NCBI RefSeq assembly: GCF_023008545.1
Contig: NZ_CP095397.1
Location: forward strand, 1,798,001 to 1,862,000
DNA length: 64,000 nucleotides
Direction of reading: 5' to 3'
Source: Natribaculum luteum
GTDB lineage: Archaea; Halobacteriota; Halobacteria; Halobacteriales; Natrialbaceae
Made by a program: the position numbers and the translations under genes. Positions 5,755-36,014 of the stretch are shown one piece after another (position 1 is the stretch's first letter; the number at the start of each line of letters is the position of its first letter). The notes beneath the pieces were generated by a model. It searched no databases. It saw only the letters and a list, made by a program, of their open reading frames with translations, and was not told where the DNA came from.

Positions 5755-6035
5755 CTATCGCTTTGGCGAAGTTAGAGCAAAATCGCAAGACGGCGTAGGT
5801 TCAAGGGGCCGCTGTAGGGTAGATAGCGTTCGCTGATTATCACATCTGAAAGTCCTATCAATTCAATTGACTGTCAGCTACCTTTAACTATATATGGCCG
5901 TAGTTACGTGGGAACTACCAGCGCCAAGCCGGACGTCGGAAAGCGCGCTGGGATGGTATTGCTACCCAATCCCCCTACGCGCGTTCGGTGGTTCCACACC
6001 ACCGTTCATAATCTTTCCGCCGTTCGCAGGGTGCT
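5755..6035. other. Intergenic region with the pilin promoter
   Basis: No convincing ORF. A TATA-like CATAATCTT at about 6007-6015 lies some 25 nt before the pilin ATG at 6036. Starting at about 5890 the sequence is AT-rich. The left half should contain the promoter of the leftward gene. Confidence 0.4.
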
Positions 6036-6614
6036 ATGGTAAATATGGATCTAAAGAAATACAGATCGAAGTTGATCGGAAGTAAAGAGGAACGAGCAGT
6101 CTCACCCGTGATCGGCGTGATTCTGATGGTCGCGATCACGGTGATTCTTGCGGCTGTAATTGCGGCGTTCGTTCTTGATATTGGTAACAATATGGGTGAA
6201 CCAGCGCCCACTACTGCAGCTGAAATAGATATGAACTCTGATTGGCAGCCAGACTCTTCTGGCACAACTCCCGACGCTGAGCTATTCTATCTGAGTCATT
6301 CATCAGGGGACTCTATTGCTAATGGCAACGTGAAAGTCATTCTTCGTGATAGTGATGGTGGTGAAATTGCGTCATTAGATGCTACCGATTCTGATACCGT
6401 GGGTGGCTCAGCTAGTTCTGACGAAACGACGATTGAAACCGAACTAAATGATGATTTCGGTGCAGGTGCTACCCTTACCGTGAGTGTTAGTCACACCGGC
6501 TCGGGTGACGGGGTAAACCTCTACTCGGATCTTGATGGCGAAGTAGAGGTCCAATTGGTTGATTCTGCATCTGATACTACAGTCACCACAGCAACCTTCG
6601 AGACTGACCCCTAG
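6036..6614 (+). CDS. Archaeal type IV pilin-like protein
   Basis: 192 residues. The N-terminus is an archaeal class III signal: a basic leader ending KEERA, then the conserved VSPVIGVILMVAITVILAAV hydrophobic helix (about 22-45) and an Asp/Thr/Ser-rich secreted domain. PibD-type peptidase would cleave before the helix, and the product would join a surface pilus. It is a host-type gene inside a provirus, with lower GC than its neighbours, so it is probably cargo that alters adhesion of the lysogen or receptor exposure. No pilus ATPase or platform gene is nearby, so it would depend on host machinery. Confidence 0.88.
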   Translation: MVNMDLKKYRSKLIGSKEERAVSPVIGVILMVAITVILAAVIAAFVLDIGNNMGEPAPTTAAEIDMNSDWQPDSSGTTPDAELFYLSHSSGDSIANGNVKVILRDSDGGEIASLDATDSDTVGGSASSDETTIETELNDDFGAGATLTVSVSHTGSGDGVNLYSDLDGEVEVQLVDSASDTTVTTATFETDP

Positions 6615-6700
6615 AAGCTGATACCCATCCCTCATTTGTTATTTTAATAATCAACCAGAGGTATCTACACAAATCTATCGTATTAGATATTTCTCTACCG

Positions 6701-6955
6701 TCATCTACTTTCAATCGTTGTGCAATATCGAAGTTTAATCACTGATGTATTCGAAATTCCTTGGATCGTTTTTGGATCGTACTCTCCTCGAGTGTCCTGA
6801 ATATCCTCTTCGCTCTCGAGCAAATGAGTTAACGCCGCGTCGATTACCACACTCACCGGCGAGTCGTCGTACTAGTCGGCGGCGACGATCGCGCTCGCCT
6901 GCTCGATTTTACGCTGTCGTTCGTCGGTGAGCTTCAGACTGGTGCCTTCTATGAC
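6701..6955 (-). pseudogene. Broken copy of the small ribbon-helix-like gene at 7604-7864
   Basis: The minus-strand translation aligns along its whole length with the intact gene: GTSLKLTDERQRKIEQAS, then an in-frame TAG where the intact copy has Glu, then YDDSPVSVVIDAALTHLLES, QNTR-like and NTSVIKLRYC segments. The start codon is also lost (GTC ATA GAA GGC in place of ATG ACC AAA CGC). The copies have the same orientation and flank the gene at 7036-7578, suggesting a duplication or recombination event that brought that gene in. Confidence 0.85.
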
Positions 6956-7035
6956 GTCCTTGTAAGTAGCTAATCCCCAGTTCAGATAGTCATAGAAAAA
7001 GACAAATTCTATCACTTATATCTGGGAATGTAACT

Positions 7036-7578
7036 ATGACGTTATTACAAGCGCAACAGAAAACACTTGCATCCTATCTCGCCAATGGAGAGTCGGCGAT
7101 CACTGCGTCTACCGAGGGATCAGTCACATACCTTCTAACTGATCGAAGATTTATCACGTATCGTGAGGACGACGACAGAACAATCTCAGTTACATCTCAG
7201 TTTTTGGATAATTTGGGTGGGGTACGTATCCGAAAAGAAGAGGGAAACAATTTCAATACCGACAGTCTAGCAGTCGGATTGATTTCACTCTTGACCGGTG
7301 TTGTCACCTTAGCTCTTCAAGGACTGATGCCAGGAGGACTCTCTGAAATGTTCCTCTTGATTGGTGTTGCTGGGGTTCTCATCGGTGTAATTGCACTCGT
7401 ATATGTCTTTGATACTGAAGATGATCAGATATCTATCCAATTGCGGACTCCAGAGGGAGAGGTTGTCGAATCACTACAACTGAATGAGGATTCTATGGAA
7501 TTTGCTGAGGCCGTCTCAAAGGCTGCAAGCAACACTCATACGCCAGACGAGGAGCACGTCAAAACAGTGTCAGCCTAA
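7036..7578 (+). CDS. PH-like membrane protein of unknown function
   Basis: 180 residues. The first 60 resemble the start of bacterial PH-like domains (SVTYLLTDRRFITYRED). Two membrane helices follow at about 76-95 and 105-122, then a C-terminal domain (YVFDTEDDQISIQLRTPEGE) that could be a second PH-like half. It is AT-rich relative to the window, has a TATA-like stretch about 20 nt upstream, and sits between two copies of an unrelated small gene. It looks like horizontally acquired cargo. Role unknown. Confidence 0.75.
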   Translation: MTLLQAQQKTLASYLANGESAITASTEGSVTYLLTDRRFITYREDDDRTISVTSQFLDNLGGVRIRKEEGNNFNTDSLAVGLISLLTGVVTLALQGLMPGGLSEMFLLIGVAGVLIGVIALVYVFDTEDDQISIQLRTPEGEVVESLQLNEDSMEFAEAVSKAASNTHTPDEEHVKTVSA

Positions 7579-28936: not shown

Positions 28937-29863
28937 TCAGCCCTGCCGCCAGCTCGCCTCGACGCGCTCGGTCACCGTGCCGCCGTCGAGTTCGACCGTC
29001 GCCCCTGCCCGGTCGCCGTTCCCGCCGCCCGGCGACGCCGGTGGGCCAGTGTCGGTGAGCACGATCTCGATCGTCGCCGCGTCGGGCTCGAGCGGCGGCT
29101 CGAGGGCGACGTCGAGTGCAGTCGCGTCTCGCCGGTCGATCGATCCCGTGGTCACGCGCTCGTCGCCGTCGACTGCCACCGAGACTGACACCTCGTCGGC
29201 GTCGGTGAAATCGAGCGCTGGTGCGGTTTCGACGTCGCTGTAGTCGAACCGAAGCCGCTCGAGTGCGGTCCCATCGACGTCGACGGTCCGAAGTCTCCAC
29301 TCGTGTTCGAAGACGCCCCCGCCGGTCTGGCGGACGTCGACCGTCGCCGCGTCGACGTCGATCTCTGGCCACTCGAGTACGAGGTCGCGCTCGGCCTCGA
29401 TCCGGGTTCCGTCGCTGCTGGCGTCGATCTCGATCGTTCCCATCACCGTGGAGCCGGGCGGCCTCTCGCCGCCCGGATCCTGGTTCACGGTGACGTTCTC
29501 GAGTCGCTCGCCGGGACCGAGTCGGTCGCCGTCCGCGCCGACGACGACCCGGTCGTCGGATACGTCGACGCCGTCGGCCGAGTCGAACCGGAACGTATCG
29601 ACTGCGAGCGTGACGGTGATCGGTTCCGGAAGCTGGTTGATCACGTCGAACGAGACCGGTGGCCGACGAGGCTCGCCCCCGAACAGCAGGCCGCCGTCCT
29701 CGACCCCGTCTTCGGTCAGCCCGAGGTAGGCGTCCGCGTCGTCGACGACTGCGACGCGAACGTCACGATCGGTCCTCGCGGTCGAGAAACCGGTGGTGTC
29801 GACCGCGAGGACGCCACTCGAGCCGACGATCATCGCCAGCGTCGCGCGTCGGGTCCGTTTCAT
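28937..29863 (-). CDS. Secreted surface protein of the DUF1102-like family
   Basis: 308 residues from ATG 29863. Signal segment MKRTRRATLAMIVGSSGVLA, then the family hallmark VAVVDDADAYLGLTEDG, also found in the two proteins at 31088-32251 (VADDASAYLRLQ and VADDASAYLGIQ). The rest is beta-rich and acidic with Asp-rich loops. Probably exported and assembled at the cell surface; TasA-like biogenesis is a possible comparison because a signal peptidase I gene belongs to the same cluster. Confidence 0.75.
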   Translation of the reverse strand: MKRTRRATLAMIVGSSGVLAVDTTGFSTARTDRDVRVAVVDDADAYLGLTEDGVEDGGLLFGGEPRRPPVSFDVINQLPEPITVTLAVDTFRFDSADGVDVSDDRVVVGADGDRLGPGERLENVTVNQDPGGERPPGSTVMGTIEIDASSDGTRIEAERDLVLEWPEIDVDAATVDVRQTGGGVFEHEWRLRTVDVDGTALERLRFDYSDVETAPALDFTDADEVSVSVAVDGDERVTTGSIDRRDATALDVALEPPLEPDAATIEIVLTDTGPPASPGGGNGDRAGATVELDGGTVTERVEASWRQG

Positions 29864-29927
29864 GACTATCGCGTGCCGTCGCTGGTCCGTTCTGATCTCG
29901 AGTATCGCGTGTTCAGTCGTCGATCCA

Positions 29928-30584
29928 TCAGTCGTCTCCCGAGCGGTCGTGGTACTCGAGTTCCACGCCCGGCGGCTCGTCTGCGATCCCGAGCCGGTTT
30001 TGCCGCTCGCAGTACCGGTGTGCGATCGCGGAGACGGCGAACGTGACGACGACGAACACGCCCCAGGTAGACGGCGTGAGCTGGCCAAGCGGCGTCAGGT
30101 CGTTCGTCGCTACCACGTACAGTGCGCCGGCCAGCGTCGTCAGTCCGAGGTAGTACGCGCCCCAGGGAATCTCCCGTCCGCGGACGACGTCCATGTAGAT
30201 CTCGACGTTCTCGAGCGCCGGCGTCGGTTCGACCGTGCCCCGGTCGCGATCGAACTCGACGACGCCAGCGGCGTCCATCTTCGGGAGGTGTGACTGCTGG
30301 AGTGCCGTGTAGACTCGCTTTCGATCGCTACTCGAGACCTCCTCGAACGCGAGGCCGTCCTCCCAGGCGGCGATCTCCTGTGAGAGGTCGCCGATGTCGA
30401 CCCTCCGGTCTTCTCGCATGAGCGTGTGCAGGATGTGCCGTCGCCGCTGGTTTGACAGGAGCGTGAAGAGCTCGTCTTCGGTGAGGACGTCGTCAGCTGT
30501 CCCCGCCGCGGCGTCTCCTCCGTCGTCCGTCTCCAGTTCCGACGTCTCGGTTCCCCCGGACGCTTCTGCGTGAGTTGCCCCCAT
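29928..30584 (-). CDS. DUF7344-like regulator with two membrane helices
   Basis: 218 residues. A winged-helix domain (about 35-120: ELFTLLSNQRRRHILHTLM, RVYTALQQSHLPKMDAAGV), a juxtamembrane segment, then two membrane helices (YYLGLTTLAGALYVVA and WGVFVVVTFAVSAIA). A membrane-bound transcription regulator by architecture. It is divergent from the secreted-protein genes across a region rich in repeated GTCAAC sites, which makes it the likely local regulator. Confidence 0.82.
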   Translation of the reverse strand: MGATHAEASGGTETSELETDDGGDAAAGTADDVLTEDELFTLLSNQRRRHILHTLMREDRRVDIGDLSQEIAAWEDGLAFEEVSSSDRKRVYTALQQSHLPKMDAAGVVEFDRDRGTVEPTPALENVEIYMDVVRGREIPWGAYYLGLTTLAGALYVVATNDLTPLGQLTPSTWGVFVVVTFAVSAIAHRYCERQNRLGIADEPPGVELEYHDRSGDD

Positions 30585-31087
30585 TTCGGATACACGCTAG
30601 TACGGCATGGGCCAAAAATGTTGGTCTGTAAATAACTGTTTGAATCCAACCAGTTCTGAAACCGCCAAAATCGGGATTCTCGCCGGACTCGAGTCAGTCG
30701 GTCAACGCCATCGATACCATCCAGACGGCCGGTCAACCGGTGGTATACCGACTCTCGAGGCCCGGTCGGACCCGGCTTGACCGACGGTCAACCGCGTCGA
30801 TACCGACTCGAGGGGCGAGTCAACGACGGCTGGACCGCAGGTTCGGCTGCCCCGAGTGGTGGTCGACTCGAGTCAACCCGTTCCATACGCCCGTGCCGGT
30901 CCAGTCGGGCGGGCGTTGACTGATGGACACCAGACTCTGCGATCGACTCCACGACTGTATTACAATACCCCTTGCTGGACACGGCTGATCTGTGATCCCC
31001 GCGGTGGGGATCGGGGCGACGACGAGCCGACGTGGAGCCGACGAGGTGTGGTCGCCCTCGAGCGACAACGACACGGAGAATCCAACC
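30585..31087. promoter_or_regulatory. Long divergent regulatory region with repeated GTCAAC sites
   Basis: Within about 220 bp the sequence GTCAAC or its complement occurs seven times (about 30701, 30732, 30777 as TTGACC, 30787, 30819, 30872, 30915). Three of these lie in tandem units, GGTCAACC followed after 8-10 bp by GATACC or TATACCGACTC; the second and third units are exactly 55 bp apart (30731 and 30786). Farther right a promoter-like GTATTACAAT (30957-30966) matches two others in the cluster. No ORF is supported here. Confidence 0.65.
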
Positions 31088-31636
31088 ATGCAACGACGCA
31101 AATTCGTCATCGGAATGGGAGCACTGGCATCGGGAGCAGCTGCGGTCGTCGGTACCGGCGCGTTCTCGAGCGTGACCGCGACACGAAACGTCGACGTCGA
31201 GGTCGCCGACGACGCGTCCGCCTACCTGCGACTGCAGGGAACTGGCGGCAACAACTCGGAGTACGTCACCGACGACGGGGACGGCGGCACGCTGATGATC
31301 AACCTCGATTCGGGCAACTCAACTAGCGCGGGCGGTGATGGCGTCAACCCCGACGCAGTCACGGAAATCGACAACGTGTTTACCGTCGAAAATCAGGGTA
31401 CTCAGGAGGTCAACGTGGATATTTCCAAGTCCGGAAACAATTCGGGTCTCGTCGAGTTCTATCCCAGTAACGGAGACTACAGCGGCAGTCCGCTCTCGAG
31501 TAGTGCCACCACCCTTGGACCCGGTGAAAGCACGGTAGTCAGCATCAAAGTCGACACGACGGACAGTAACCTCGGCAGCGGCGACCAGCTGCTTGACTCG
31601 GTGACCTTCAACGCGGTCGCGACGCCGAGCAGCTAA
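31088..31636 (+). CDS. Tat-exported DUF1102-like surface protein
   Basis: 182 residues from ATG 31088. Tat signal: RRKFVIG (residues 3-9), a hydrophobic stretch, then GTGAFSSVTA. The mature domain carries VEVADDASAYLRLQ and a Gly/Ser/Asn/Asp-rich beta domain ending without an anchor. It is expected outside the cytoplasm, free or polymerised. First gene of the secreted operon. Confidence 0.82.
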   Translation: MQRRKFVIGMGALASGAAAVVGTGAFSSVTATRNVDVEVADDASAYLRLQGTGGNNSEYVTDDGDGGTLMINLDSGNSTSAGGDGVNPDAVTEIDNVFTVENQGTQEVNVDISKSGNNSGLVEFYPSNGDYSGSPLSSSATTLGPGESTVVSIKVDTTDSNLGSGDQLLDSVTFNAVATPSS

Positions 31637-31651
31637 CCGGGTTGGAACGTC

Positions 31652-32251
31652 ATGGAACGACGAAAATTCGTCCTGAGTGTCGGCGCGCTCGCCGCCGGTG
31701 GCAGCCTCACGCTCGGCACCGGCGCGTTCAGCAGCGTCGAAGCCGAGCGCGACGTCGCCGTCAACGTCGCCGACGACGCCAGCGCGTATCTTGGGATTCA
31801 ACCCGGCGATGGACCGAACGGCAACTACGTCGACACGACGGCCAGCAACGCGCTCGCGATCAACCTCACCGGCGACAACGACAACATCGGCGACGGACTC
31901 GCCGGTGGGGAGGGACTGAACGCGAACGCCATCACGGGGATCGCAGACATCTTCCAGGTCCAGAACCAGGGCACCCAGGAGATCGAACTCCAGGTGACGC
32001 CACTGGCGTTCGGCGACGTGAGCTGGCAGAACTTCGACGGCGTACTGGGCGTACTTCTGGTTCCACATGCTGGGAGTATCGACGTCGAAATCGAGTGGGG
32101 GATCCCACCATCGGTCAACTTCATCTCCATCTCGACGCTGTCGCCCGGCGACGAGATCGAGTTCAGCCTGGTGGCGTTCGCACTGCCCGAAAGCGCAGTC
32201 GACTCGGTGGCTGTCGACGACGAAATCGAACTCACTGCGGAGGCGATCTAA
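31652..32251 (+). CDS. Tat-exported DUF1102-like surface protein, paralogue
   Basis: 199 residues, paralogous to the gene just upstream (15 bp between them): RRKFVLS Tat motif, GTGAFSSVEA, VNVADDASAYLGIQ, and VQNQGTQEIEL against VENQGTQEVNV. It lacks a C-terminal anchor. Tandem duplication of the secreted subunit suggests a two-component surface structure. Confidence 0.82.
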   Translation: MERRKFVLSVGALAAGGSLTLGTGAFSSVEAERDVAVNVADDASAYLGIQPGDGPNGNYVDTTASNALAINLTGDNDNIGDGLAGGEGLNANAITGIADIFQVQNQGTQEIELQVTPLAFGDVSWQNFDGVLGVLLVPHAGSIDVEIEWGIPPSVNFISISTLSPGDEIEFSLVAFALPESAVDSVAVDDEIELTAEAI

Positions 32252-32252
32252 C

Positions 32253-32378
32253 ATGGCAGACGACACACCAACACTCAGCGATTACGAGGAGACCGCCGAC
32301 GTCGAATTCGACCTGAGCGACGAAGAGATCGACCGCGAGACGATCAATGCGGAACTGGAGCGGCTCTTCTCCAGCTAG
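32253..32378 (+). CDS. 41-residue acidic protein of the secreted cluster
   Basis: ATG begins 1 nt after the stop of the upstream gene. Sequence runs MADDTPTLSDYEETADVEFD, then LSDEEIDRETINAELERLFS: very acidic with a C-terminal helix. Soluble, no signal. Its coupling to the exported proteins suggests a chaperone-like or regulatory partner, but this is inference. Confidence 0.65.
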   Translation: MADDTPTLSDYEETADVEFDLSDEEIDRETINAELERLFSS

Positions 32379-32418
32379 CGGCTGACACAGGCTTTTTCGA
32401 CCGCCGGCGTCACTCATC

Positions 32419-32550
32419 CAGTCACGATCGATTCCCCACACAATCTCCATACAGTCACGATCGATTCCCCACACAATCTCCATACAGTCACGATCGATTC
32501 CCCACACAATCTCCATACAGTCACGATCGATTCCCCACACAATCTCTATA
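32419..32550. repeat. Tandem repeat, 4 x 33 bp
   Basis: Four uninterrupted 33-bp units starting CAGTCACGATCGATTCCCC and ending CACACAATCTCCATA. Units 1-3 are identical and unit 4 has one change (CTCTATA). Each unit contains the palindrome CGATCG. It starts 41 bp after the preceding stop codon. As 33 is a multiple of 3, a minus-strand frame stays open through it, but that frame has no protein-like context. Confidence 0.95.
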
Positions 32551-32701
32551 TCTCGTCGGTGATCTCGAGCGACAGTTCTCGGCGGTCGTCACGCCGGCCG
32601 TTCTGGACCACATGTCGGCATTCGCTCGTTTTCGGACGCTGCTGTACCCGCTCGAGCCCACAGTCTCACGTTAACTTCCAGTTCACCAACCGTGAGACGC
32701 C

Positions 32702-32722
32702 TCAACGGCCGTATTACAATGG
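32702..32722 (+). promoter_or_regulatory. Cluster promoter motif, copy B
   Basis: CAACGGCCGTATTACAATGG (with a leading T) differs at a single base from the copy at 33349-33369, 647 bp away. It lies about 90 bp before the ATG at 32810. The TTACAAT part may be the TATA element and TCAAC a regulator half-site. Confidence 0.6.
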
Positions 32723-32809
32723 GTCGTCGTATCGCCCCCTCGAGTACCCTCGAGCCGCCGTGTGCCGCCCGGAACGGCCACGCAGGGAACAGGGAGGGGA
32801 ACTCGAGCC

Positions 32810-33232
32810 ATGGATGGATCGACGATACGACGCTACCTTCGAGCACTGGTCGCCGCGATCGACGACCGCCAGACGGACGAGCGAACGGGAATCGTCGACA
32901 GAACGCCGCTCGACCGGCGACTCTGGCTCGCCGTCGTGGTCGCGACCGCCGCGGATCTCGGGACTACCGTCGGCGGCCTCGAGCTCGGCCTCGAGGAGTC
33001 GAACCCCGCGGGAGTGCTCGTACTCGAGAGCGCGGGCGTCCTCGGACTCCTCGGGGTGAAAGCGATGGCCGTCGGGTTCGGGCTCGTGATCACGGCTGCC
33101 GTCCTGCGAGCGCCGGATCGGATCGCCCCGGACTCCGTCGTGCTCGTCGTCCCGGCCGCGCTCGCGAGCGTGTGGCTGCTCGCCGCGACGTGGAACGCGT
33201 ACCTGCTGGCGATCGTCCTGGTCGGTGCGTGA
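32810..33232 (+). CDS. DUF5658-like small membrane protein
   Basis: 140 residues with three or four helices (LWLAVVVATAADLGTTVGGL, VLGLLGVKAMAVGFGLVITA, VVLVVPAALASVWLLAATWN). The Asp-x3-T and E-x-N-P pattern in the first loop (ADLGTTVGG, EESNPAG) is the hallmark of DUF5658-like proteins. ATG 32810 chosen, with a second ATG one codon later but one. Function unknown; it lies inside the secreted-protein cluster and shares its promoter motif. Confidence 0.75.
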   Translation: MDGSTIRRYLRALVAAIDDRQTDERTGIVDRTPLDRRLWLAVVVATAADLGTTVGGLELGLEESNPAGVLVLESAGVLGLLGVKAMAVGFGLVITAAVLRAPDRIAPDSVVLVVPAALASVWLLAATWNAYLLAIVLVGA

Positions 33233-33323
33233 CGGCCCATCGCTCTCTCGCTCTCGCCGTCCTCGTTTCTTCGCTCTCGAGGGGTCAACGAGGACGATAC
33301 CGTCCACTCGAGTTCGAAATCCT

Positions 33324-33369
33324 CCGTTGACCGTCCCGAGAGGGTGGGTCAACGGCCGTCTTACAATGG
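33324..33369 (+). promoter_or_regulatory. Cluster promoter motif, copy C, with inverted repeat
   Basis: CCGTTGACC (33324-33332) is the exact complement of GGTCAACGG (33347-33355), a 9-bp inverted repeat. The right arm runs into CCGTCTTACAATGG, matching copy B. A looser second copy, GTTGAC then ATTACAAATG, lies at about 33416-33439. The signal peptidase gene starts at 33467. Confidence 0.6.
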
Positions 33370-33466
33370 CGACGGACGACCGCCGCTCGATCGTCGTGAC
33401 CACCACCGCAAACTGGTTGACTGCCACAAATTACAAATGAATAAACATAATGTAACTAGGTGACGA

Positions 33467-34627
33467 ATGATCCGACGGGGGGTCGAACGGGGGCTACAGG
33501 GGGTGGCGTTCGTCGTCCTCGTCTCGCTCGTGGCGGGACAGGTGCTCGGCCAGCCGATCCTGCTCGGGTTCGTCGAGACGGGGAGCATGGAGCCGACGAT
33601 CGACACCGGCGACGGCTTCGTCGCGATCCCGAGCGAGGTGACCGGCGACCCGGAGCCCGGTGACGTCGTCGTCTTCGAGGCCGAGGAGATCCAGGGCGGC
33701 GGGCTGACGACCCACCGTATCGTCGAGGAGACCGATCGAGGGTACGTGACCCGCGGCGACGCGAACCCGTTTACCGACCAGGACGGCGACGAGCCGTACG
33801 TCCAGGACGCCCAGATCGTCGCCGAGGCGTGGCAGGTAAACGGCGAGATCGTGACGATCCCGGCGTTCGGGACGGCCGTCATGACCGCGAGCGGCGCACT
33901 CGAGTCCGTCCAGACGCGGCTGGCCGTCGCACTCGGCGTCCGGAATCTTCCGGGTGCGTCGGGACTTGCGGTTCCGATTCTCGGCGTCTCGATCGTCCTC
34001 TACGTCGCCGAGACGATCCGCGAACGACGGGAGCCGTCGCTCGAGTCGCGCACCGGCGACGAGGCGGACGACTGGCTCGATCCCCGGCTGCTCTCGGCCG
34101 GCTTCGCGCTGCTGGTCGTCGTCGCGGCGGCGGCGGCGATGATCGTACCGGCTGGCACGCAGTCCTACGCCGTCGTCAGCGCGGAGTTCGACTCGGAGCG
34201 ACCGCTCGTGATCGAGCGGGAAACGACCGGCGAGATCCCGTACCCGGTTTCCAACGGCGGGTTCGTTCCCGTGATCTCCTACGTCGAACCCGGCAGCGAG
34301 GACGTGACCGTCGATCCCGGACGGGCGATCGTCGGGCCACGCGACGAGACGACGGCGACGGTCTCGATCACGGCCCCAGAGGAGACGGGCCACTATCCGA
34401 TGTACGTCACCGAGTACCGCTACCTGTACGTGCTCCCGGCCCCGGTCGTCGACGCTCTCTACGCGGTCCACCCGTGGGCACCGTCGACGGCGATCCTGTC
34501 GCTGCTGGGCGGTGGCACCTACGCGATCGGGCGAGTCCTCTCGGGGCCAGGCGACGTCCGCTCGAGACGGACGGCGATCCGAAACCGCTGCAGAGAGACG
34601 CGATCGATCGTTCGGAGGCGAAACTGA
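33467..34627 (+). CDS. Archaeal signal peptidase I (S26B) with extended C-terminus
   Basis: 386 residues. N-terminal anchor helix (about 10-30), catalytic Ser in GSMEPTI (about 40) and His in LTTHRIVEE (about 83), the Ser-His dyad of archaeal and ER enzymes. After the protease (to about 165) come a second membrane helix, a low-complexity segment, another helix, a beta domain (FDSERPLVIERET...YPVSNGGFVPVISY) and a final helix. It probably removes signal peptides of the secreted proteins in this cluster (SipW-like). The extra ectodomain could recruit them. Confidence 0.88.
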   Translation: MIRRGVERGLQGVAFVVLVSLVAGQVLGQPILLGFVETGSMEPTIDTGDGFVAIPSEVTGDPEPGDVVVFEAEEIQGGGLTTHRIVEETDRGYVTRGDANPFTDQDGDEPYVQDAQIVAEAWQVNGEIVTIPAFGTAVMTASGALESVQTRLAVALGVRNLPGASGLAVPILGVSIVLYVAETIRERREPSLESRTGDEADDWLDPRLLSAGFALLVVVAAAAAMIVPAGTQSYAVVSAEFDSERPLVIERETTGEIPYPVSNGGFVPVISYVEPGSEDVTVDPGRAIVGPRDETTATVSITAPEETGHYPMYVTEYRYLYVLPAPVVDALYAVHPWAPSTAILSLLGGGTYAIGRVLSGPGDVRSRRTAIRNRCRETRSIVRRRN

Positions 34628-34634
34628 GATCGAC

Positions 34635-36014
34635 ATGACATTCCTATCGACGGAGACTGGCGAGGCGGCGGACGAGGAGCGACGGCTGCGACTTCGCGTC
34701 CTGCTCGAGGAGTATCGAACGGTACTGATCGTCGCGTTCGTCGTCCTGGTAGTCCTTGGGGGGTGGCTGAGCTACGGTGCGTACGCGAATCCGGGCGAGG
34801 AGACGACACGGCAACGTGAGTCCACCTGGACCGCCACGGGCGACGTCTCGCACGACGCCACGGTCACGGAGCCGAACTCGGTCTATCCCACCGGGACCCG
34901 ACTCGAGAACCGGCCGCTGTACTACACGGCGATCAGCCCGACGGTCGACGGCGAGTTCGTCGGGGGGTACGAGTCACGGACCGGCGACGGCGTCGACGTC
35001 GCGCTCACGGTCGACCTGTCCTATCGTGCGGTCGATCCCGACGACGGGACCGTCTACTGGAGCGAGCGAGAACGGCTCGCGTCGACGACCGGCGAAGACG
35101 TCGACCCGGGCGAGAACGTCACCGCCACGTTCGCCGTCGACGTCAGCGACGTCGCGACGCGGATCGACGAGATCGAGTCCGACCTCGGAGCCAGTCCGGG
35201 CGAGACCGAGGTTGTCCTCGAGTTTGGCCGGGTGATCGAGGGAACGATCGACGGCGAGCAGCGGTCGGCCACGGACAGCTACCGGGTTCCAATCGTCACC
35301 GAGGGCGGGACGTACCGGCTCGAGGGCCAGGACTCCTACGACGAGCCGTACGAGGAGTACGAGACCGAGGTCGTCACCGCCTCGGCCGGTCCGGTGCGGA
35401 CGGTCGGCGGGCCGGTGCTCCTGCTGGTGGGCGTCGGCGGTCTCGGGGGACTCGCGTACGCCTCCCGACGGCTCCCGGAACCGACGGCCGCCGAACGCGA
35501 GTGGCTCGTGTACCGCGACGACCGCGCCCGATTCGAGGAGGTGATCACGACCATGGCGCTGCCCGACGCGGCACTCGAGGGGCCGCGAGCGAAGCCGGAG
35601 ACGCTGGCGGCGCTGGCCGAGTTCGGGATCGACGCCGACGCTGCGATCGTCTTCGATCCGCAGCGAGAACTGTACGTCGTCCGCCACGACGGGATAGTGT
35701 CCGTCTTCGAGCCACCGACGCCCGCGTCGGTAGCCGACGGCCGCGACGACGCGAGTTCCGGCGACGACGGGCGGATTTCGTTCGTCGAGGCGTCCGACTC
35801 GGCGTCGGCGAGCGAGGGGACGACGACTGGCGAGCCCACGTCGAAATCGGACGCCGACCCCTCGGCCGCGAGCGACGACGACCCGTTTACGTTCGCCGGA
35901 CTCGAGACGGCAGCGGACGAAACCGCCGAGTCCGACTCGAGCGGCTGGCACGCACAGTTGGACGAGTCGGGCCCGGACGAGGGTGACGCGGACGATACCA
36001 ACGGTGGCGACTGA
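34635..36014 (+). CDS. DUF5305-like membrane protein
   Basis: 459 residues from ATG 34635, 7 nt after the signal peptidase stop. One membrane helix near the N-terminus (VLIVAFVVLVVLGGWLSYGA), a large beta-rich ectodomain (about 60-250), a second helix (GGPVLLLVGVGGLGGLAYA), then a cytoplasmic domain and an acidic Ser/Asp-rich tail. Family resemblance is to DUF5305 proteins, repeatedly found next to signal peptidase I genes. It probably cooperates in export or assembly of surface proteins. Confidence 0.82.
   Translation: MTFLSTETGEAADEERRLRLRVLLEEYRTVLIVAFVVLVVLGGWLSYGAYANPGEETTRQRESTWTATGDVSHDATVTEPNSVYPTGTRLENRPLYYTAISPTVDGEFVGGYESRTGDGVDVALTVDLSYRAVDPDDGTVYWSERERLASTTGEDVDPGENVTATFAVDVSDVATRIDEIESDLGASPGETEVVLEFGRVIEGTIDGEQRSATDSYRVPIVTEGGTYRLEGQDSYDEPYEEYETEVVTASAGPVRTVGGPVLLLVGVGGLGGLAYASRRLPEPTAAEREWLVYRDDRARFEEVITTMALPDAALEGPRAKPETLAALAEFGIDADAAIVFDPQRELYVVRHDGIVSVFEPPTPASVADGRDDASSGDDGRISFVEASDSASASEGTTTGEPTSKSDADPSAASDDDPFTFAGLETAADETAESDSSGWHAQLDESGPDEGDADDTNGGD

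Follow-up and report, generated by a model that had tools for sequence, protein, structure and literature searches.

The gene cluster at 28,937–36,014 of a 64,000-nucleotide stretch of Natribaculum luteum DNA (contig NZ_CP095397.1, positions 1,798,001–1,862,000; hereafter the window) is probably a cluster for fibres of the TasA superfamily resembling the twin-arginine translocation (Tat)-fimbriae (tafi) of haloarchaea. We would place the likelihood of this reading at about 75%, the formation of fibres being suggested by sequence matches and structural modelling. The locus is a distinct variant of a kind of system already known from the tafi of 2025 and from TasA and bundling pili. Its strongest new element is an acidic micro-protein of 41 amino acids (aa), which appears to be an obligate genetic partner of one of two fibre subunits and has been joined to it once. 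The host genome (4.6 Mb in 3 contigs) is that of a member of the Halobacteria. Tat-fimbriae of haloarchaea were reportedly described by Galeva et al. in iScience in 2025 (28:111793). They are known here from parts of a citing paper (PMC12687288), from the NCBIfam models TafA, TafC and TafE, and from PDB entry 9P0A.

The two subunits are encoded in tandem on the + strand, subunit 1 (182 aa) at 31088–31636 and subunit 2 (199 aa) at 31652–32251, and both are TafE-like. They are 53% identical over residues 1–116, begin with MQRRKFVIG and MERRKFVLS, respectively, and share the block VADDASAYL. The motif M[QE]RRKFV was read from the translation as a twin-arginine signal, and its arginines R3 and R4 are invariant in 25 of 25 aligned rows. 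An earlier note on this DNA had proposed exported subunits; signals are indeed present, but they are twin-arginine rather than Sec-type. Subunit 1 passes the DUF1102 model (PF06510) with 30.9 bits, and no match to that model (cut-off 22.2) was obtained for subunit 2. When a profile of 25 subunit sequences was compared with all PDB chains, chain 9p0a_C was retrieved over profile positions 1–117 with an E-value of 4.7e-22, the next match following only at 0.2; subunit 1 alone retrieved the same chain at 9e-11. The title of entry 9P0A is 'Structure of Natrinema sp. J7-2 Tafi pilus'. A search with subunit 2 among plasmids gave no match.

The fold points in the same direction. An AlphaFold2 model of subunit 2 is all-beta, with a mean predicted local distance difference test (pLDDT) of 56.9 and a predicted template modelling score of 0.60, residues 91–180 being modelled best (blocks of 66–82). 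Chain 7ueg_A of the Pyrobaculum bundling pili was the top Foldseek match (E 9.1e-5) and the sole one at or below 0.001, and in VIA-align it reached a Z of 8.7, with 9p0a_C at 7.0. These bundling pili are related to TasA according to the portion of PMC9674648 used here. The match to the Tafi pilus is a sequence match independent of the model, and sequence and fold agree. For a TasA-like or jelly-roll fold, as envisaged in the earlier note, the all-beta model and its likeness to 7ueg_A speak in favour, but the model is of moderate quality and Bacillus subtilis TasA itself was not among the 50 structure matches listed for this query of pLDDT 56.9. The badly placed N-terminus of the model would look like a free donor strand, low confidence alone being no proof of one.

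Further parts of the cluster lie on both sides of the subunit genes. Downstream of the subunits on the + strand lie genes for a signal peptidase (386 aa; 33467–34627), with a C-terminal ectodomain and further hydrophobic segments, and for a DUF5305 protein (459 aa; 34635–36014). The peptidase passes TIGR02228 (55.7 bits, cut-off 51.85), and all 68 relatives aligned to it keep Ser40, His83, Asp98 and Asp104 without exception. On sequence it is an archaeal/endoplasmic reticulum (ER)-type S26 enzyme with a Ser–His active site; this active site and the ectodomain had been noticed earlier. Membership of SipW was considered and rejected, the protein reaching 35.0 bits on the SipW equivalog NF046067 (cut-off 190). 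Its neighbour, earlier called DUF5305-like, matches PF17231 with 183.9 bits against a cut-off of 29. A literature search on the words DUF5305, DUF7344 and DUF1102 found no paper.

On the other side, a TafC-like exported protein (308 aa; 28937–29863, − strand) is, by sequence comparison, a real but distant paralogue of the subunits. It scores 30 bits with a hidden Markov model (HMM) of the subunits, and its residues 1–149 align to the subunit profile with an hhalign probability of 97.6% (E 3.5e-12). In place of VADDASAYL it carries VVDDADAYL. All the parts that the earlier note named are present, this more distant third paralogue among them. The TafC model is matched over residues 2–55 only. 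No Pfam family was found in the protein, and its C-terminal part lacks a Laminin_G match, unlike the TafC of the TafA-containing locus L083, which carries a Laminin_G_3 domain. Between this gene and the subunits, and divergent from the latter, lies the gene of a winged-helix regulator (218 aa; 29928–30584, − strand) that matches DUF7344 (PF24035) with 104.9 bits at a cut-off of 27.8 and shows C-terminal hydrophobic segments by eye.

That these parts, which the earlier note saw side by side, belong together beyond chance is borne out by their conservation. A set of 41 loci was compiled from the window and 40 of 43 loci outside its own genome with a peptidase identity of at least 54% (G009 was added later); L051, L053 and L057 among these relatives are contig-limited, and 20 loci of lower peptidase identity, part of the remainder, were also looked at. 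Across the 41 loci the divergent DUF7344 gene is found in 38, DUF5305 in 39, two or more subunit-type genes in the same orientation as the peptidase in 36 and a TafC-like gene in 35. An HMM built on the CARDB-domain protein of L007 calls a gene in 19, and the 41-aa protein is a separate gene in 17. Four loci lack any subunit gene oriented like the peptidase (L042, L050 and the contig-limited L051 and L053). The order is nearly constant: TafC-like and DUF7344 genes in one direction, then in the other two subunits, the small protein and the CARDB-type protein where these occur, the peptidase and DUF5305. In the family, relatives of subunit 2 were found in 104 of 121 genomes (E at most 1e-6) and relatives of the peptidase in 110 (E at most 1e-20). 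The N. luteum genome holds two further such clusters, at 1.10 Mb (L007) and 3.25 Mb (L008) of contig C1.

Comparison with tafi itself was made through 20 loci selected for TafA, whose cut-off is passed in 21 of 242 genomes of the class. An S26 peptidase of this kind occurs in 20 of these loci, DUF7344 in 19 and DUF5305 in 15; that the set of three marks tafi is our inference from these loci and not taken from the literature. The window shares with tafi the presence in one cluster of twin-arginine TasA-superfamily subunits, TafC- and TafE-type proteins, DUF7344, the S26 peptidase and DUF5305. The TafA loci, in contrast, are mostly arranged otherwise, with consecutive genes for TafA, DUF7344 and TafC, those for TafE and a CARDB-type protein next to this trio, and the peptidase and DUF5305 at the edges, and the window instead has two tandem TafE-like subunits with the 41-aa partner in one operon. 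In a FastTree phylogeny of 88 peptidases (support values not read) the enzyme of the window falls in a clade apart from that of tafi, and also apart from the two others of its own genome. With the same kinds of parts, another arrangement and a separate peptidase clade, the locus is best described as a sister cluster to tafi. The proposal of a SipW/TasA-like fibre system is supported as far as fibres are concerned, by 9p0a_C and 7ueg_A, but its closest known counterpart is the Tat-fimbriae of haloarchaea and not SipW/TasA.

Several results weigh against this reading. None of the three tafi equivalogs is matched above its cut-off by a protein of the cluster: with TafA (NF052520, cut-off 190) both subunits score 35.9 bits, with TafC (NF052521, cut-off 410) the 308-aa protein scores 35.2, and with TafE (NF052522, cut-off 155) subunits 1 and 2 score 65.1 and 65.9, and no TafA above the cut-off was found in the whole N. 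luteum genome. The proteins of L083, for comparison, pass with 257.6 (TafA), 558.6 (TafC) and 218.6 bits (TafE), and a protein of L095 reaches 100 bits on TafE. In the subunit 2 model residues 1–45 stay below a pLDDT of 50. A VIA Z below 8 can reflect no more than a widespread arrangement, and a Z of 5–6 is reached by numerous beta-sandwiches that are unrelated. The AlphaFold2 model of the peptidase, built from a 10-row alignment, had a mean pLDDT of 40 and was discarded as unusable. In five loci (L113, L114, L136, L140 and L142) no peptidase gene accompanies the two subunits in the stretch examined around them (L141 ends at its contig), so that there the peptidase acts from elsewhere or is not dedicated, and L050 holds the peptidase and DUF5305 with no subunits. 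Given such relatives, the earlier word 'dedicated' is perhaps too strong as a general statement.

If the cluster makes fibres, the following course may be proposed. The DUF7344 regulator would act on a palindrome in the shared promoter region. Subunits 1 and 2 would fold in the cytoplasm and leave through Tat, after which the Ser–His peptidase would cut off the signal, probably just after GTGAFSSVxA. The N-terminal strand freed by the cut would then fill in the next subunit's beta-sandwich, in the manner of TasA and bundling pili; this donor-strand mechanism of TasA is set out in the portions of PMC9674648 and PMC10151520 drawn on here. The TafC-like protein, with its subunit domain and extra C-terminal part, would be a likely cap or tip, and the DUF5305 protein and the peptidase ectodomain may form a membrane platform.

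The chief alternative is that no fibres are made and that the cluster is a general-purpose cassette for the Tat export and maturation of varied cargo, its products being surface proteins, monomeric or membrane-bound, in which TasA-like domains serve as carriers. The same peptidase and DUF5305 pair also adjoins fusions of a TasA domain to NosL, in L008 and in L018 of Natrialba magadii, and in other relatives the subunit domain is part of far longer open frames. However, the closest solved relative of the subunits, 9p0a_C, is a filament subunit, and a tandem pair of short subunits that carry no additional domain is typical of fibre systems; we therefore regard this alternative as unlikely. Still less credible, and very improbable in our view, is a degenerate, silent tafi remnant: a tandem repeat and a membrane-protein gene confined to this lineage stand here in the interval of the CARDB-HMM gene, but the reading frames of the locus are all intact, subunit 2 and the peptidase are 88% and 98% identical to those of the same-genus genome G016, the closest relative in the genome set, and the 41-aa gene differs from its counterpart there by only two codon changes, both synonymous.

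The fusions may be described on their own account. That of L008 occupies 5780–7207 of the locus and scores 41.2 bits with Pfam NosL, and that of L018 (4505–5944) is annotated as NosL; both precede the peptidase and DUF5305. By eye, a NosL-like motif is also seen in TafE-like fusions of L066, L069 and L074, with the same pair next to them. Such proteins would be copper proteins that the same module handles as cargo, borne on the surface or on fibres. Genomes G033, G077, G005 and G069 contain 8–13 subunit-type matches each, several in open frames of 345–640 aa, which suggests many cargo proteins with TasA-like N-terminal domains.

Within the tafi-like cluster, the micro-protein deserves separate treatment. 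Its gene (32253–32378, + strand) starts 1 nt after the subunit 2 stop, and the start lies 1–7 nt after that stop in the 17 loci where the two are not fused. Translational coupling to subunit 2 is therefore probable, and the earlier description of a coupled acidic micro-protein holds good. The two synonymous changes relative to G016, together with third positions that change most against more distant relatives, identify by codon comparison a gene under protein-level purifying selection. In a profile search of 341 genomes of the class the protein was found in 21, and the 21 top genomes of the corresponding subunit 2 search (E at most 4.1e-63) are exactly the same ones; in each, the small gene lies directly downstream of subunit 2 on the same strand. 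It is also present in 12 of 12 named loci, several of which represent the same organisms as the genome set. In L045 (G019) subunit 2 and the small protein are joined in a single frame of 253 aa, which ends with the motif of the small protein. No gene of this type was recognised in the 20 TafA loci. We consider the protein a new part of the locus, a statement made without a literature search on its sequence. Among L136–L142, where the subunit 2 match is weaker, an acidic frame of 41–61 aa lies at the same place in six of seven loci, 1–3 nt after the stop or with a 4-nt overlap; these six frames (five distinct sequences) show weak likeness to the narrow HMM (E 1.1e-4 to 0.014 at a search space of 5). 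Behind the subunit 2 match of L140 no acidic small frame was found.

Because of this genetic linkage and the one fusion, the micro-protein would be a dedicated physical partner of subunit 2, bound to it while it is made or soon afterwards, and would either hold it export-ready or travel out with it. Subunits exported by Tat fold before export, so they must not polymerise in the cytoplasm, a problem that the Sec versions lack. One sound candidate is a chaperone, or a Tat-proofreading factor, that serves subunit 2 and never leaves the cytosol, although we would put it somewhat below even odds. The absence of a signal sequence by eye, a start close behind the subunit stop, as fits binding at synthesis, and the one-to-one occurrence with subunit 2 all agree with it, but a protein fused to the C-terminus of an exported subunit, as in L045, would leave too unless cleaved off. 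That same natural fusion favours a function outside the cell: the protein would be part of the fibre, or cap it, having hitchhiked out with the folded Tat substrate. Tat does carry assembled complexes, for example the Ni-Fe hydrogenase (from the relevant part of PMC9251779). Only the one fusion is seen, however, which counts against this option and against the larger scheme alike, and we judge work outside less likely than not, at odds slightly below those of the chaperone. Only tentatively, and with some doubt, would we propose a combination, namely a new class of fibre-assembly factor that has no signal, is coupled in translation, blocks assembly in the cytoplasm, leaves as a hitchhiker and has become a C-terminal domain in one lineage.

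The control region gives a candidate site for the regulator. The palindrome TTGACN5GTCAA occurs at 30777–30791 (TTGACCGACGGTCAA) as the only match in the window, where 0.06 are expected, and as the sole site in the 4.6-Mb genome; a reversed control has 3 sites per strand there, so the case for an operator comes from the comparison of loci. This was made over 37 mutually related loci, 4 of the 41 being excluded for want of a properly placed DUF7344 gene and subunit gene. The DNA that separates DUF7344 from the first subunit gene amounts to 16,240 bp and holds 29 sites, against 2 in the 470,914 bp that make up the rest of the same loci, an enrichment of more than 400-fold, and at least one site is present in 21 of the 37. 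The regulator probably controls the locus through this palindrome, to judge from the position of the sites. The fuller form GTTGACN5GTCAAC was tried and dropped, with 0 sites in the genome.

A promoter-like element, ATTACAATAYCC (30959–30970, + strand), lies about 128 nt 5' of the first subunit gene. The sequence TTACAA is found within 350 bp 5' of that gene in 33 of 37 loci, and the exact element in 41 of 114 loci, several of which are overlapping copies of one place. The interval 30960–31087 would give subunit 1 a 5' leader of roughly 100 nt, with a Shine-Dalgarno-like GGAG near the start. Such a long leader would be unusual if most haloarchaeal messenger RNAs are leaderless. Within it lies a hairpin (GATCCCC...GGGGATC; 30994–31012, + strand) whose pairing is kept in relatives: in the 25 long-leader loci tested, out of the 33 with TTACAA, 92.8% of cells are paired. 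As a conserved RNA the hairpin was rejected, since shuffles reach its covariation score in 95 of 500 cases.

Likeness to better-known systems is partial. The B. subtilis tapA-sipW-tasA operon likewise sets an archaeal/ER-type signal peptidase beside TasA-superfamily substrates, and Bacillus cereus sipW-calY1-bc_1280-calY2 has two paralogous subunits, as far as the cited part of PMC10151520 describes them. Compared with these, the window has twin-arginine signals, a longer peptidase that has an ectodomain, DUF5305 and DUF7344 partners and a coupled small protein. The AbpA bundling pili of Pyrobaculum calidifontis (PDB 7UEG) come closest in fold to the subunit 2 model, but identity is 11% over aligned residues and the system is that of a hyperthermophile. 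The Sulfolobus thread Saci_0406 (PDB 7PNB) is also a donor-strand-complemented archaeal filament and reaches a Z of 5.6, but it ranks eleventh, amid beta-sandwiches that are unrelated. For these threads the part of PMC9715654 used here gives isopeptide bonds and glycosylation.

Fibres of the TasA superfamily built by donor strands link the biofilms of bacteria and archaea, and the present locus shows that clusters of the tafi type extend beyond the named equivalogs. It supplies a candidate operator for a regulator of the DUF7344 kind, and a 41-aa protein that is always genetically beside one subunit makes the question of polymerisation before export testable in a culturable haloarchaeon.

Two further features lie between the 41-aa and peptidase genes. 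A tandem repeat (33 bp × 4.1; 32415–32550, 98% matches) separates the 41-aa gene from that of a putative lineage-specific membrane protein (140 aa; 32810–33232, + strand) for which no Pfam or NCBIfam match was obtained; the repeat sits in the interval that holds the CARDB-HMM-called gene in 19 of 41 loci. The earlier note mentioned neither of these, nor the DUF7344 gene and the promoter palindrome. The membrane-protein gene occupies the same place only in L023–L026 among the 40 relatives, and in L104–L107 among the 12 named loci.

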